Positions 40,768 to 50,574 of a DNA stretch of 64,000 bases are shown here, one piece after another (the stretch's first letter is position 1; each line of letters opens with the position of its first letter). Origin of the DNA: Rhizoclosmatium globosum (lineage: Eukaryota > Chytridiomycota > Chytridiomycetes > Chytridiales > Chytriomycetaceae); NCBI GenBank assembly GCA_002104985.1, contig MCGO01000001.1, positions 930,001 to 994,000 of the forward strand, given 5' to 3'. The notes below the pieces were generated by a model. It was not told where the DNA came from, did no database searches, and was given only the letters and a program-made list of their open reading frames with translations. The translations under genes and the position numbers were made by a program.

Positions 40768-42505
40768 ATGATGTTTAGCGCTCTTGCTTCTGCACCAAAA
40801 CGGGTTCTTGGATTCCACTCGCGCTTTCTTGCGACCGCTGCTGCCCAGGCTGCGGCAAAGGTGGGTCCTAGTTGGTTATTGTTAGGTTATTGAGACAGGT
40901 AAACTAACCCAAACTGGCTGGATGCAGCCAATGAACGCTTCGCTTGAAGCCACTGATCCAGAGATCTTTGATATTATTGAGAAGGAGAAGCAGCGCCAGA
41001 GAGAGAGTATTGTCCTGATCCCTTCAGAGGTTGGTCTCACAATGTCATTGAACGTAAGCTAAACCAACCCACAACTCAGAACTTTACCTCTGCAGCTGTA
41101 ATGGGTGCCCTTGGATCGGTGATGCAGAACAAGTACTCCGAGGGTTACCCAAATGCCAGGTACTGTCCCTACAATAACCCTTCCGGCCATCCCAAAAAAA
41201 CCTAAAAAACTGCGATCCAACCAGATACTACGGTGGAAACGAATTCATTGACCAAGCCGAACTTCTCTGCCAAAAACGTGCGCTCGAACTCTTCAACTTG
41301 GACCCTGCAAAATGGGGTGTCAACGTCCAACCCCTTTCGGGTGCTCCGGCAAACTTGTACGTCTACAACGCTCTCATGAAACCGCATGACCGTTTGATGG
41401 GGCTCGACTTGCCACATGGTGGTCATCTTTCTCATGGGTTCCAGACGGACACGAAGAAGATTTCGGCAGTTTCGATTTACTTTGAGTCTATGCCGTACAG
41501 AGTTCGTGAGGATACTGGAGTTATTGACTTTGATATGTTGCAAAAGACTGCGGCTATCTATCGTCCTAAAGTGTGAGTATTTCCTGGTTCTGATCAGGGC
41601 GTTCGCTCTCAACAAAATTAAACATAAACAATAGCCTCGTCGCTGGAGCGTCCGCGTACCCAAGAAACTGGGACTTTGGTAAAATGAAGCAAATTGCCTC
41701 CAGCGTCGGCGCCTACCTCCTCGCCGACATTGCCCACACCTCCGGCCTCGTCGGCGCCGGTGTCCTCCCCCACCCCTTCGACCACGCCGACGTTGTCACA
41801 ACAACAACCCACAAATCCCTCCGCGGCCCCCGCGGTGCCATGATCTTCTACAGAAAGGGCGTCCGCTCCGTCGACAAGAAAGGCAAGGAAATCATGTACG
41901 ACCTCGAAACCCCAATCAACGCGTCTGTCTTCCCGGGACACCAAGGCGGCCCGCACAACCACACCATCACGGCCCTCGCCGTTGCCCTGAAGCAGGCAAA
42001 GACTCCTGAATTCAAGGCGTACCAGACACAGGTTCTCAAAAACGCAAAGGCGATGGAGAAGACGTTCGCGGGGGCTGGGTATGATATGGTTTCTGGGGGT
42101 ACTGATACACACCTTTTGCTTGTGGACTTGAGAAACAAGGGTGTGGATGGGGCTCGTGTTGAACGTATTCTTGAGCTTGTGAACATTGCGGCGAACAAGA
42201 ATACTGTTCCGGGAGATAAGAGTGCGCTTGTTCCACATGGTTTGCGTATTGGTGCGCCAGCCATGACGACTCGTGGGCTTGTTGAGGCGGACTTTGAGAA
42301 GGTGTCCAAGTTTGTGATTCGGGCGGTTGAGATTGCTGTGGGGTTGAAGAGTAAGGTTGGGGGTACAAAGTTCAAGGACTTTAAAGAGTACGTTGCGGAT
42401 GGAAGTGCTATTCCAGAGATTGTTGCGCTCAAGAAGGAGGTTGTTGAGTTCAGCAAGGGGTTCCCAACTATTGGAGTTGAGGAGTCTAGCTTGAGATACA
42501 AATAA
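40768..42505 (+). CDS. Serine hydroxymethyltransferase, mitochondrial type
   Basis: A PLP enzyme interconverting serine and glycine while charging tetrahydrofolate with a one-carbon unit. The N-terminus ([20 protein letters not shown], then an alanine-rich stretch) is basic and lacks acids, as in a mitochondrial transit peptide. Landmarks: [84 protein letters not shown], and the PLP lysine in [19 protein letters not shown]. The usual SGSPAN is SGAPAN here. Five exons at GT..AG introns, no frame break. Confidence 0.95.
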
Positions 42506-42676: not shown

Positions 42677-44707
42677 TCAAGCCTTTGGTTCCTCTGTTGG
42701 CTGTGAGGGATTTGTGGGAGGTGGAACAACAGATTCCTCAGTACTTTTTGCAACAGCTGAAGTAGCAGCTGTCGTCCCTCCAGTTGACGACGCCGGTGGA
42801 GGAATCGCGTCTAATGGAGCTGGCTGTTCTGAAGCATCAACCCCTTTTGACAATGGCGACGGCTTATCACCGGCCCCTTCCGGAAGCCCCGGAACTTTAG
42901 ACGTCGAATCCCCCGTACTTACTTCCTTCCCCTCCAACCTCGTCGGCATATCTGGACTCAACTGATCCAAACTCTTCTGACTCCCCCCACGACTCACAAC
43001 ACTCCCCGCTTTACTCCTCAGCGTTCCCAACTCCTCCTCCATATCAACATGCTCACTACGGTTATCCATAATATCCACAGCGCTAGACCGGTTCGACGCG
43101 AGGGACGCGCGCGACATGGACACGGATCGTTGGATTTCGCCCATTTTGGCTTCCCAGACTTTCGACTTTTTGCGGTCTTTCGCGGGGGTCGGGAGCTTGG
43201 TGATGTCAAAGTTTGTGTATTGGGCTTCGATTTTGTCGTATTCTTTGGCGAGTTCGAGGGACTGGCGGGAGAGTTTTGAGGCGACGGAAGCTGTAGAAGT
43301 GTTTGTTGTTTTGTTTTTTTGTTGGTATCTGAGAGAGGAGGGGAATTGTAAAGAGGGTGGGGTGCTTACATCGTCCGTCCTTTTCCTTCTTTCGTGGCTT
43401 TGCTTTTAGTGGCGTGTCTTCATAGAAGATTTCATCCATGTCGTGTTTATCGTCAAAGTTGAATTTCGATGCCTATAAGTAAAAATACTCAGTCAGGCAA
43501 CGGGAAATATAAAAAAGATACTCACATCAGGCACGTAGGGTGGGGTAACCTCCAACGCATCCAATTTCTCCCAATCATAGTCAATGAACCATTCGTGTGT
43601 ATTGATCCTTGTATCTCCTCCGCTCTCTTTCGAGCCGAGTCTGTTGACGGCAGGTCGCGTTAAGAATCCTTTGATGACATCTTTACAGGGTTCAGAAATT
43701 TTGATTTCGTCGTCGGGTGGGAATTCGAGGGGTCCTGATATGATGAGCTTCTTAAGGTCGTCGTTTTTCTTTGCACGGAAAGGTCGCTAGAATAAGTATG
43801 TGATTCAGTCAATGTTTCAAAGTGATTGTGGGGTTTACCTTTCCACAAAGCATTTCATAGTGGATTACTCCGAGTGACCACCAATCGATTGTATAGGTGT
43901 ATCCAGCTTTTTGCTCGAGAATTTCAGGCGCTACAGAGATTTAAGATAAACGATTTACATCCTTCAACGGGGTGAATGAACGTACCCATATACACCAAGC
44001 TTCCTGCAACTGCATGTAGCGGCTTTCCTTCCTTCCAATACGTTGAAATGTTAAAATCTGTGAGACACGCGTTTCCTCGTATATCCAACAAGACTATCGT
44101 CATATAAGAAAACCAATTGAAACACAAGCGAGAACACTCAACTGTTATCCGGTTTCAAATCTCGATGCACGACATGTTTCGAATGTAAATACATCAAACC
44201 GAGCGCAATTTGTGCAACATAGAACTTGACCCATTCCTCGGGGAAGATGTTATTGTTGTTTGTAAGTAGAAACCGCAAGTCTCCTCCCAACTTCAGATCC
44301 ATCACCATGAACATATGCTCATCGTCTTGAAACGCGTAAATCAAGTTACTGTGAATATTCGAAATCAGCAAAATAACGCGATCGCCTCTTCGTTTGAGTG
44401 AAACTTACCATACAAAAGGACAGTTTACAATCTCCAGCAACTTTCGTTCTTGTATAATATTATCGACAGCCTTCATTTTAATACATTGCTCCTTGTTGAT
44501 GTATTTCAACGCGTATTTCTCCTTTGAGAGCTTATGTTGGACGATTTTGACTTTTCCAAAGGCACCCTTTCCGATCGCTCGAAGGAGATCAAAGTGACCC
44601 AAGTTCACTGCGGTGAAGTATTATGTTTGATGAGTTATCATGTTTCTTTTGTTACCTTCTTGCTCAAAGTCTATCTGTTCCTCGACTTTGGAACAACAGA
44701 TACCCAT
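42677..44707 (-). CDS. STK32/YANK-like AGC kinase 1
   Basis: [18 protein letters not shown] at the start fits N-myristoylation plus palmitoylation. Then [20 protein letters not shown] (glycine loop), [12 protein letters not shown] (VAIK lysine), [31 protein letters not shown] and YMAPEIL with [11 protein letters not shown] in place of DFG is the norm in STK32/YANK kinases. The kinase domain is followed by an AGC-type tail ([15 protein letters not shown]), a conserved [11 protein letters not shown] region and a long disordered S/P-rich end. About nine small introns, no break. Closest to the array members at 53.7 and 56.2 kb. Confidence 0.9.
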
Positions 44708-44889: not shown

Positions 44890-47800
44890 TTATTTTCGCC
44901 TTTCGTCGAAACCCTTCTTCCCTTGTACTTTGTCAAGTCTTTCGTGATAAATCAAATCGATTCGTTTACGAACATCGTCGAATTCGTCTAGAATGCTTTC
45001 GAACGCGCTTCTTGAAAGTTGATAGAGCATACAGGGAGTTGAGGCTTGAATGGTCGCTGTGCGTGGGATATTCGCAAGAAGTGCAATCTCTGTAAGAAGT
45101 TATACTTTGATGTACAAACAGTTCATCCATACCTCCGAAAAATGCCCCTTCTTTTAACGTAGCTACAATATTGTCCCCAATACGTACGTCAACTCGCCCA
45201 TTTTTGATAAAGTACTGTTTGGGCTGTATAAGAATACGAAAGATAAATTCGAGGACCACACCAATTCATATCCGATTTCGCCCTGCCTAAATACAATATC
45301 TCCTCCAATAAAGAAACAAGCAACAAGAGAATTTGCGATTCGTAGAAGGAACTTATCGTCTCGTCCGTCACACTCGGTTCTTTGCAGGAATGTTACTTTC
45401 GAGACAAGTTCTCTGGCTGCAGCAAGTTTCCTTTCCTCTTCTTCACTTTTTATCTTGTTCATTCTTTCTTTGTAAATTAATTGCACGTTTTCCATTACAT
45501 CAGGGAACTCGTCGGTGATTCTCTCGAAACATGGTCGAGTAAGTCTGTATAACATACAAGGAACCATGGCCTTGACAGTAGCTGTTCTCGGTAGATTGGC
45601 GATAAGCGCAACTTCTCCAAAGAATGCACCATCATGTAAGAATGCAACTTGTTTGCCATTTACAATAATTTCAACACGTCCGGATTTCATAAAATACTAA
45701 ATTCTGTCAGTGGAGAAGTTGATATTCGTGAGAAACAACTCACCATATCATTACTAATCTGAAAAAGAAATTGCTGGTTAATATTGCACGAGATGAGGCA
45801 AACCACATACCTCTCCTTGATTAAATATAACATCATCGGCGCAATAAAATGCAGCGGTAAGTGAAGAAGCAATGCGAAGTAAGAAGACTTCGTTTCGCCC
45901 ATCTTGAGCCTTCCTCTTTAAGAACTCCACTTTAGCAATCAACTCTTTGGCGGCACTCAGCTTCCTCGCTTCTTCCTCCACTCTTATTTTCTCCATGCGC
46001 TCTTTATACACAATATCGACCTTGGCTCGCACATCATCGAACTCATTTAGGATAGTCTTGAAAGCAACACGAGTCAAACGATACAAGATGCAAGAAGTTT
46101 CGCATTGTACTGTAGCTGTTCGGGGAATATTTCCCAAGATTGCTACTTCTCCAAAGAAACCGCCTTCTTTCAGTGATGCTACTTTGGTTCCTCCCACAAG
46201 AACGCTGACAGATCCTTTTGCAATAAAAAACATGTCGTGGCCGGTCTCGCCTTGAATGAAGATTATGTCTCCAGGAACAAAGTAACAAGCGACCAGTGCT
46301 GTTGCAATTTTACCGACAAAGAGCTCATCCTTTCCATCATTCTGTGAAAAAAAGTTATTTTGTTGTTTACAGATCAATTTTAAGTTACCTGTTCGCGATT
46401 CAAGAACGACACCTTTGCGATTAATTCTCTACAGTTGTGTGCGGCTATCTCCATTCGCAGAGACTCGTTCATCTCTCCGAGCAATGTCGTCTTAAAAGAG
46501 TACATATAAGCATTCCGTATCAATGACCTCAACTCACCTCTTCGAAGAACTTTCCACGATACTTCAGCTCATAATATTTAAGAATTTTTCGTCTTGTAGT
46601 GTTACTGAGATCTTTCCACTGCATGGTTGATACGAGTGCTTTAGAGTGTGTTGCTTCACTATTCGACACTCACTTTCATATACTCTTTCAACTCATCGAT
46701 TTTTTGTTTGTACAATCTATCGGAAGCGTTGGATCCCATAGCGACAGCTGAAATAACACCGACCACACTTGCATACTGAAAACTTTATCAGATACGCAAT
46801 AGACAGGGCGAAGTCTTACTAAAACAGCCCCAAGGACCACGAAGCATAAAACAATCCATTGTTCAGCGGGATGAACAGGTTTATAAGCGAGTGGAAACGT
46901 ATTTCCTATAGCCTGTTAAGCTCACGTGAGATAACGAATAGAATTGAAAAGAAGCTTACAAACAGTAAAGCCCAGCTGTATTGGTCAAATGGATCCGCAT
47001 CTTTTACGCCAACGATGTCGATATTGCTGTATCCAAAACAATGACCTGCCAAAAACATGGCACACGCTTGCAAGTGAAAGAAGACACACACAATACAAAT
47101 CAGAGGAAATGCTCCAGATAAGCTTGCACCAAACCCAAATAAGTTGTTAAAATATCGCTGAAACTGTAAGAATTGAGGCGATACTGAAACAAGACCAGGA
47201 AGCTTATACAGACGCAACACTCTTATTATCCATAAATAATGTCCTTCAGATATTGGCAGTGCTTCGAGCGGAAATGTCGTTACCAAGTCACAAATAAATC
47301 CATTCTTGAAGTAATGATTTTGCCACTCCTTGAGTGAAGGTTCCGATCCCGTGGTGCCGTATATTCGACGAGTAAATGCTTCTCTTAATGTATCAAATGC
47401 GTATAATATCGTCAAAATGTAGGAATACGACATGTCAATCGGGAGTTGGAAGGAAATGCATATCGGAATTATCCAGAGTGAGGTTAAATAAATAACTGTG
47501 TTATGTCAGTAAAATTGTATCATGGACTCAAGACCTCACATATCATGACAAAATCAAGCGTTGTTGTCAGAGTTGCAGTTGCTTTGATACCAATGGTGAA
47601 AATTTCGTGCATAATACTCAGTCTATAAACTATTTGAGACGATGCTCTGGTATTTGGTGTCTGCTCAGGTGGCTCTGAAATAGTACCAGAGGATTCATTC
47701 AAGCCACTGGATTTGACTGCAGTCTTCATTAATCGTCGAAGAACAGAGTCTCTGCGAGTGGTACCCTCATCTTTCACCAAAGATGCAACTCGTGAATCAA

Positions 47801-48844
47801 CACAACTTAATTGGGTGGGCTGAGCAGCGACGGCTTCTTCTTCAGGAATATCATTCTCCTCAGCATCGTGATCAATAACATTCACGATATAATTGGAATG
47901 CCCAGTTTCAGATTTCGTACCTCCGATTTCATGGACATCATCAGATGGCGCGTCTTGCATACCAGCTTCAAAGCTTTCATTTGCCGTACTTAAGTGAGGT
48001 TTCTTTGTAGCAAAGGACATTTGATTCGCTGTCAATGGGCTTGGGTTTGAATTCTTCCTTGATGAATCAGAGCGATTTGGGCTATGAGGCAATTGCTGAT
48101 GCTTTTGATGTCGAATAGAAGCAGGCGATTTTGTAATCGGTGATGTGCCGTCTTGTAATTTGGATTCCGTCCTCCCAAATTGAGTAAGCATGTTGAGGCT
48201 GCTCCCAGCGACGAGATTTGATGACGATTTTCCATTACTGACAAGCTTGCTGCTTTTGTTGAACACAGATTGAAACATACTCTTTGATTTGTTTTCTTCA
48301 GCTTCGTTGAAAATTACGTCTCGGCTAACCGATAACACATTCTTTCGAAGCAAGAGTCTTGGAGACGCTGGGGCATCGCTATCAAGCTCGAAAGGTTGAT
48401 TATTGACACGAAGAGACACTTTTCGGCTATTTTTACGTGACTGAGCTTTATGATCGCCGTTATTGGAACGAGGTGCCTCCATAGAAAGAGAAGTGCGAGA
48501 CTGTTTGACAGATTGAAGAGGCGGAGCGGTAAAGCGTTCACCTGCTGGTGTCCAAGCGGTGGAAGAAGTTAAATCGCTTATTATCTGCTCAGTGCTTGAA
48601 GCCACAGAAGGCTTCTCATGCGATGAAATACTTGTCTGAACGAAAGAGAAGCTGCGAGTTGGTCCAAAATAGGATTCAACTGGAAGAGTTTCGGTACGTG
48701 TTGGTACAGCAGGTGATAGGCCTATATTTGTGGGTAGCTGGGAGAATAGACAAAACGCCAAAGGCCGCAGTGTCGAAATCTGCTGCTCCAATAGCTCAAA
48801 CTTCGCCCTAAATTCAATCAGAAGATCCATATCAAGTACGACTG

Positions 48845-48848
<4 letters not shown>
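44890..48848 (-). CDS. Cyclic-nucleotide-gated cation channel with three CNBDs
   Basis: Start ATG 48848 (MTVVLDMDLLIEFRAKFELL). A long disordered, serine-rich cytosolic N-terminus of over 400 residues leads to the channel core: S1 (IYLTSLWIIPICISF), S4 (HYLWIIRVLRLYKLPG, few charges), pore QYSWALLF-AIGNTFPLAYKP split by an intron, S6 LCFVVLGAVLYASVVG. The filter AIGNT sits where animal CNG channels have TIGET. Three CNBDs follow, each with the phosphate-binding cassette: FFGEVAILGNIPRTATV, FFGEVALIANLPRTATV, and FFG-EIALLANIPRTATI (split by an intron). The stop is at 44890. About ten introns, no frame break seen. Known CNG/HCN subunits carry one CNBD. Confidence 0.88.

Positions 48849-50574
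<1,726 letters not shown>

Follow-up and report, generated by a model that had tools for sequence, protein, structure and literature searches.

HCN1 and HCN4 carry a single cyclic-nucleotide-binding domain (CNBD) together with a GYG filter. Several CNBDs within one CNG-related polypeptide are known from CNGK, a channel of sea urchin and fish sperm, and thus of a flagellated cell. In CNGK, one chain holds four 6TM repeats with a CNBD apiece and forms a pseudo-tetramer, and the filter is GYG or GFG (PMC4749565). The zebrafish channel contains four CNBDs, yet is gated by pH, and the sea urchin channel responds to one site of its four (PMC4749565). A survey of CNBD channels describes proteins in which the complete 6TM-CNBD unit recurs in tandem (PMC7576140). 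Arabidopsis CNGC12 has been drawn with two C-terminal CNBDs, but, judged by the fragments used, the second would fit in residues 550-565, much less than a domain requires (PMC6749817). Outside the channels, the Plasmodium kinase PKG has tandem cyclic-nucleotide domains linked by helices, four predicted and three of them functional, and a cooperative relay among them has been proposed (PMC6628679; PMC4412288). BeCNG1 of Blastocladiella has been named among the chytrid HCN/CNG-like channels (PMC9616733). In searches of an open-access library, no channel subunit was found with several full tandem CNBDs behind one six-helix unit. The main text of the CNBD-channel survey contains none of the terms 'chytrid', Spizellomyces, Rhizoclosmatium, Allomyces or Blastocladi- (PMC7576140).

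A gene with three tandem CNBDs behind one six-helix unit was found in the chytrid Rhizoclosmatium globosum, within a stretch of 64,000 nucleotides from contig MCGO01000001.1 (the window). The same layout is conserved in related fungi, so the three-CNBD channel looks like a genuine variant, apparently not described before, within a known channel family. The whole coding region occupies 44890..48848 on the reverse strand, as do all features of the gene given below, and its 11 exons, separated by 10 introns of 43-55 bases, encode 1161 residues followed by a stop codon. The gene was spliced by hand, without transcripts, by removal of ten GT..AG introns. One acceptor was shifted by nine bases to give the intron 45261-45215, which brings the encoded domain back into register with the other two; the AG at the shifted position is also present in two further copies of the gene, on contigs C292 and C372.

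The gene product consists of a Ser-rich N-terminus, a six-helix HCN/CNG-like channel, an HCN-type C-linker and three complete CNBDs. The N-terminal part (~409 residues; 47622..48848) is presumably disordered and bears a short conserved motif close to its start. This motif aligns with residues 17-45 of two Chytriomyces orthologues, so it is improbable that a large exon was missed upstream, and the gene start, as judged from the alignment, is probably correct to within a few residues. The membrane part with helices S1-S6 (residues ~410-680; 46674..47621) extends from the end of exon 1 to exon 4, and a pore loop without GYG, AIGNTFPLAYK, is located between S5 and S6 (46880..46912). The C-linker (residues 681-728; 46428..46618) is encoded by exons 5-6 and joins S6 to CNBD 1 (residues 729-873; 45946..46427). 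CNBD 2 (residues 874-1018; 45412..45945) and CNBD 3 (residues 1019-1161; 44893..45411) follow, the latter forming the C-terminal end of the protein. The three domains are 145, 145 and 143 residues long, with a spacing of 145 residues. A sequence-only reading had placed the channel with its three CNBDs at 44890..46377. The array itself is real and spans 44893..46427 on the reverse strand; the former upper end, 46377, falls inside an intron and omits the first 13 residues of CNBD 1. Pieces of protein kinase genes flank the channel gene on both sides and on the same strand (44138-44404 and 49940-50236), and a serine hydroxymethyltransferase is encoded at 41594-42505 on the opposite strand.

The presence of three complete domains after S6, as first read from the letters, was confirmed by profile and homology matches. 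Each CNBD alone scored well above the PF00027 cut-off of 27.5 bits (66.0, 71.6 and 73.2 bits for CNBD 1, 2 and 3 respectively), and the whole protein matched the same model in three stretches (E 1.1e-58). Residues ~432-735 matched HCN1 (E 7e-26), and the C-linker together with CNBD 1 matched HCN4 over 199 query residues (E 2.6e-37). A separate FFGE..PRTAT cassette had also been claimed for each domain; in the hand-spliced protein the three start at residues 803, 948 and 1093. The Pfam ion-channel model gave no report at E 0.001 for the whole protein or at E 1 for the channel part, and NCBIfam matches were far below their cut-offs. The assignment as a channel is based on the matches to HCN1 and HCN4 and on an Obelidium orthologue, whose model has a six-helix fold.

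Unlike HCN1 and HCN4, the window protein has three CNBDs, no GYG and an S4 with three basic residues. It also differs from CNGK, since a single 6TM unit precedes all three CNBDs; one channel match, rather than four, was found in the chain. The surveyed repeat channels likewise arose by internal duplication, but in these the entire 6TM-CNBD unit is repeated (PMC7576140). Other chytrid HCN/CNG-like channels belong to the same family and share the pore-loop type (in nearly all rows aligned) and the N-terminal motif (in the relatives checked); these contain one or two CNBDs, and the cassette of the second domain is altered in 9 of 20.

It is hardly credible that the array is an assembly or annotation artefact, produced by duplicated exons or by two adjoining genes read as one. 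The gene was spliced by hand, and no R. globosum protein for it was present among the matches listed in two protein searches, so the public annotation may split or omit it. However, the three domains differ from one another at almost half of their residues (52, 54 and 53% identity). Furthermore, contigs C292 and C372 bear the same intact frame with the same order of domains, at 98.3% and 97.8% nucleotide identity respectively to the window over ~5.25 kb. Both domain borders also lie inside single exons, that of CNBD 1 and 2 within one of 531 bases and that of CNBD 2 and 3 within one of 435 bases, and the gene models of Obelidium and Chytriomyces are in one piece. The sequence-only reading had itself named assembly duplicates and two separate genes as the outcomes to be feared. 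The first was ruled out by the divergence of the domains and the agreement of three contigs; the second was rejected, as orthologues in other genera hold the three domains in a single gene model.

No indel was found in the 3486-base coding sequence of either further copy, and GT..AG was present at 10 of 10 introns in both. Differences in length between the copies lie in introns, upstream and, once, just downstream. In the CNBDs, 25 codons of the C372 copy differ from those of the window, all synonymously (10, 0 and 15 in CNBD 1, 2 and 3 respectively); in the C292 copy 2 codons differ, likewise all synonymously and with none in CNBD 2. The corresponding synonymous and nonsynonymous counts are 17 and 11 (C372) and 20 and 12 (C292) in the N-terminus, and 14 and 1 (C372) and 19 and 7 (C292) in the membrane part. 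Judged by these codon counts, CNBD 1 and CNBD 3 are demonstrably under purifying selection; CNBD 2 is identical in all three copies, and the comparison is uninformative on selection there. At 48894-49684, over the upstream kinase region, the window shows 14 single-base gaps relative to the C292 copy. All 14 recur (within 3 bases) relative to the C372 copy, which has 16 there, and they are probably local consensus errors in the window contig. The channel coding sequence is free of single-base gaps of this kind.

The distribution of the architecture was followed among relatives, the best 120 of 173 matches being listed in the homologue search. The channel profile was matched by 166 of the 209 homologues collected from the two protein searches; full CNBD matches numbered three in 3 of these proteins, two in 25, one in 133 and zero in 5. 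Rows P0001-P0109 are taken to be chytrid fungi on the basis of species names. The bacterial channels, which are found from row P0168 onward among those with a channel match, have one CNBD each. The three-domain homologues are P0001 from Obelidium mucronatum, P0002 from Chytriomyces cf. hyalinus and P0003 from C. hyalinus, the gene model of the last stopping inside CNBD 3. The search in other fungi that had been proposed as a check recovered the same three-domain design. P0127, P0130 and P0133 were rejected as three-domain proteins, their three CNBD matches being pieces of two domains, as was P0036, whose three matches are fragments.

The three in-frame CNBDs of the window gene pair by position with those of the other genera. 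In a tree of single domains (139 columns and 72 rows, the deep forks being without resolution), the first, second and third domains of the three-domain proteins form separate clades (100/88, 97/93 and 99/92 respectively). Since each position groups together, the triplication predates the split of Rhizoclosmatium, Obelidium and Chytriomyces. The window and Obelidium proteins are 78, 71 and 71% identical in CNBD 1, 2 and 3; the membrane part is less conserved, at 55% identity.

The window gene belongs to a chytrid family whose members have between one and three domains; this HCN/CNG-like channel family is very large in R. globosum. In 41 stretches of the genome, picked by match strength and not randomly, 43 channel genes were read, with haplotype copies included and counted apart. 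Three of these are the three-domain gene, 11 have two cassettes, 28 have one and 1 (L032) is ambiguous; at the three-domain loci the number of domains was taken from the match listing, as the automatic joining rule broke after CNBD 1. One-, two- and three-domain relatives coexist in one genome, and the effect of each added domain can thus be measured. The three-CNBD channel is a natural experiment on the number of ligand sites that a gated channel uses, and a stacked sensor would be a candidate part for nucleotide biosensors. Arrays with at least three CNBD matches and no channel match were also found (L004 at C377:46500-56499, L005, L006, L010, L011 and L012), four of these arrays standing in a row on C377. 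These resemble Chytriomyces P0159, P0165 and P0167, and are apparently a second, soluble family of multi-CNBD proteins.

The pore loop of the window protein reads AIGNTFPLAYKP, where HCN1 has GYG at the equivalent place in the alignment. It contains no K+ signature and differs from the loops found in K+, CNG and HCN channels. Nearly all chytrid relatives (P0001-P0099 plus the window gene) have a GNTFP-type loop in which GYG, GFG and GET are absent from the filter, although some gene models in this alignment have no loop and those of P0078 and P0099 show a different type. The strings GYG, GFG, GLG, GET and GQN occur in 17 of the 100 aligned sequences, the window included, and on reading all were located before the pore loop. 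Hyperpolarisation sensing in HCN channels needs a long S4 with many charges; the S4 here, WIIRVLRLYKLPGL, has three basic residues. The non-canonical loop could indicate a modulatory or poorly conducting subunit that acts as partner of other chytrid subunits. The GYGD filter kept by the seven bacterial relatives examined and the wealth of related subunits in the genome speak for such a role. It is nevertheless improbable, as nearly all aligned chytrid relatives apart from P0078 and P0099 share the loop type, pointing to a distinct kind of functional pore and not to a dead one.

The arginine of the cassette had been said to be kept, and this holds in all three domains. All 11 domains that can be read in the four three-domain proteins retain the FFGE..PRTAT cassette and the last-helix arginine; these proteins represent about three lineages, P0002 and P0003 being near-identical there, and the 11 domains are hence not independent cases. 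In the two-domain paralogues examined, all 21 first domains keep PRTA, as do 11 of the 20 readable second domains. Retention of the motif is a weaker test than it appears and the contrast with the two-domain paralogues is partial, because only P0018 of the nine deviating second domains has no aligned arginine at the phosphate position, and three others (P0016, P0017 and P0122) are near-identical T-to-S cases. Six of the eight long end branches of the domain tree are second domains of two-domain proteins. Together with the altered cassettes, these branches indicate that extra domains drift, mildly, in the two-domain group; as far as the aligned residues tell, no drift of extra domains is visible in the three-domain group. 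Each of the three domains has T directly after the cassette arginine; at the position of the I that ends the HCN4 match, CNBD 1 and CNBD 2 have I and CNBD 3 has V. By the ligand rules of HCN and CNG channels, we take these residues to be HCN-like and without clear preference for cGMP; therefore, no commitment is made to cGMP as the ligand.

The reading preferred here, held with slightly less than even confidence, is that the protein is a tetramer-forming subunit of the HCN/CNG superfamily in which a serially triplicated CNBD binds ligand at all three positions and a relay through helices gives higher sensitivity or a steeper response. A single CNBD would have been duplicated in series to three before the three genera separated, and the subunit would form a tetrameric channel regulated by cyclic nucleotides. 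Only CNBD 1 would contact the C-linker, and hence the gate. In the Obelidium model, continuous helices at residues 488-523 and 633-668 join neighbouring domains. The alpha-C helix of CNBD 1, the ligand-sensing lid, is thus predicted to continue as one helix of ~36 residues into CNBD 2, and the alpha-C helix of CNBD 2 to enter CNBD 3 in the same way. Binding at CNBD 3 and CNBD 2 could then be relayed to CNBD 1, making gating more sensitive or steeper than with one site per subunit. The relay is proposed because of the shared helices and the analogy to Plasmodium PKG, in which each domain has been suggested to pass cooperative binding on to the next (PMC6628679). The model covers one subunit (pTM 0.47) and does not give the packing of the domains, its continuous helix may be a modelling preference, and its Foldseek TM score against Plasmodium PKG is 0.14-0.15. 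By analogy with CNGK, in which one or none of four CNBDs gates, conserved motifs are not proof of ligand gating.

A possible, though rather unlikely, alternative is that all three domains are competent to bind and CNBD 1 alone gates, while CNBD 2 and CNBD 3 serve as an anchor, an assembly platform or a nucleotide buffer, for example by holding the channel near cyclases. CNBD 1 is indeed the only domain joined to the C-linker, and the 9 of 20 two-domain paralogues departing from PRTA show that an extra domain can persist with a changed cassette. Against this, the readable second and third domains of the three-domain proteins keep both the cassette and the last-helix arginine. These would be dispensable in a pure scaffold but not in a buffer, so their retention is compatible with buffering. 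A fuller version of the preferred serial stack is doubtful as a whole. It would have twelve competent sites per tetramer and shared helices, with the distal rings setting the affinity and steepness of the gate ring and a selectivity filter of a new type, and the channel could be the target of the NeoR/RGC cyclases in R. globosum.

The protein is probably a channel of the motile spore, and a role in zoospore signalling may be envisaged. The rhodopsin-cyclase NeoR comes from R. globosum, which has three rhodopsin-guanylyl cyclases (PMC7655827); in HEK293T cells, the rhodopsin cyclases of this species made cGMP upon illumination (PMC12264004). Two putative cGMP-gated channels were hypothesised to carry the NeoR signal, but photocurrents could not be recorded (PMC12264004). 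In the genome, rhodopsin and guanylyl cyclase matches adjoin at C399:559000-565000 and C194:13900-19700, two in forward and one in reverse orientation, an arrangement that fits RGC1, RGC2 and NeoR.
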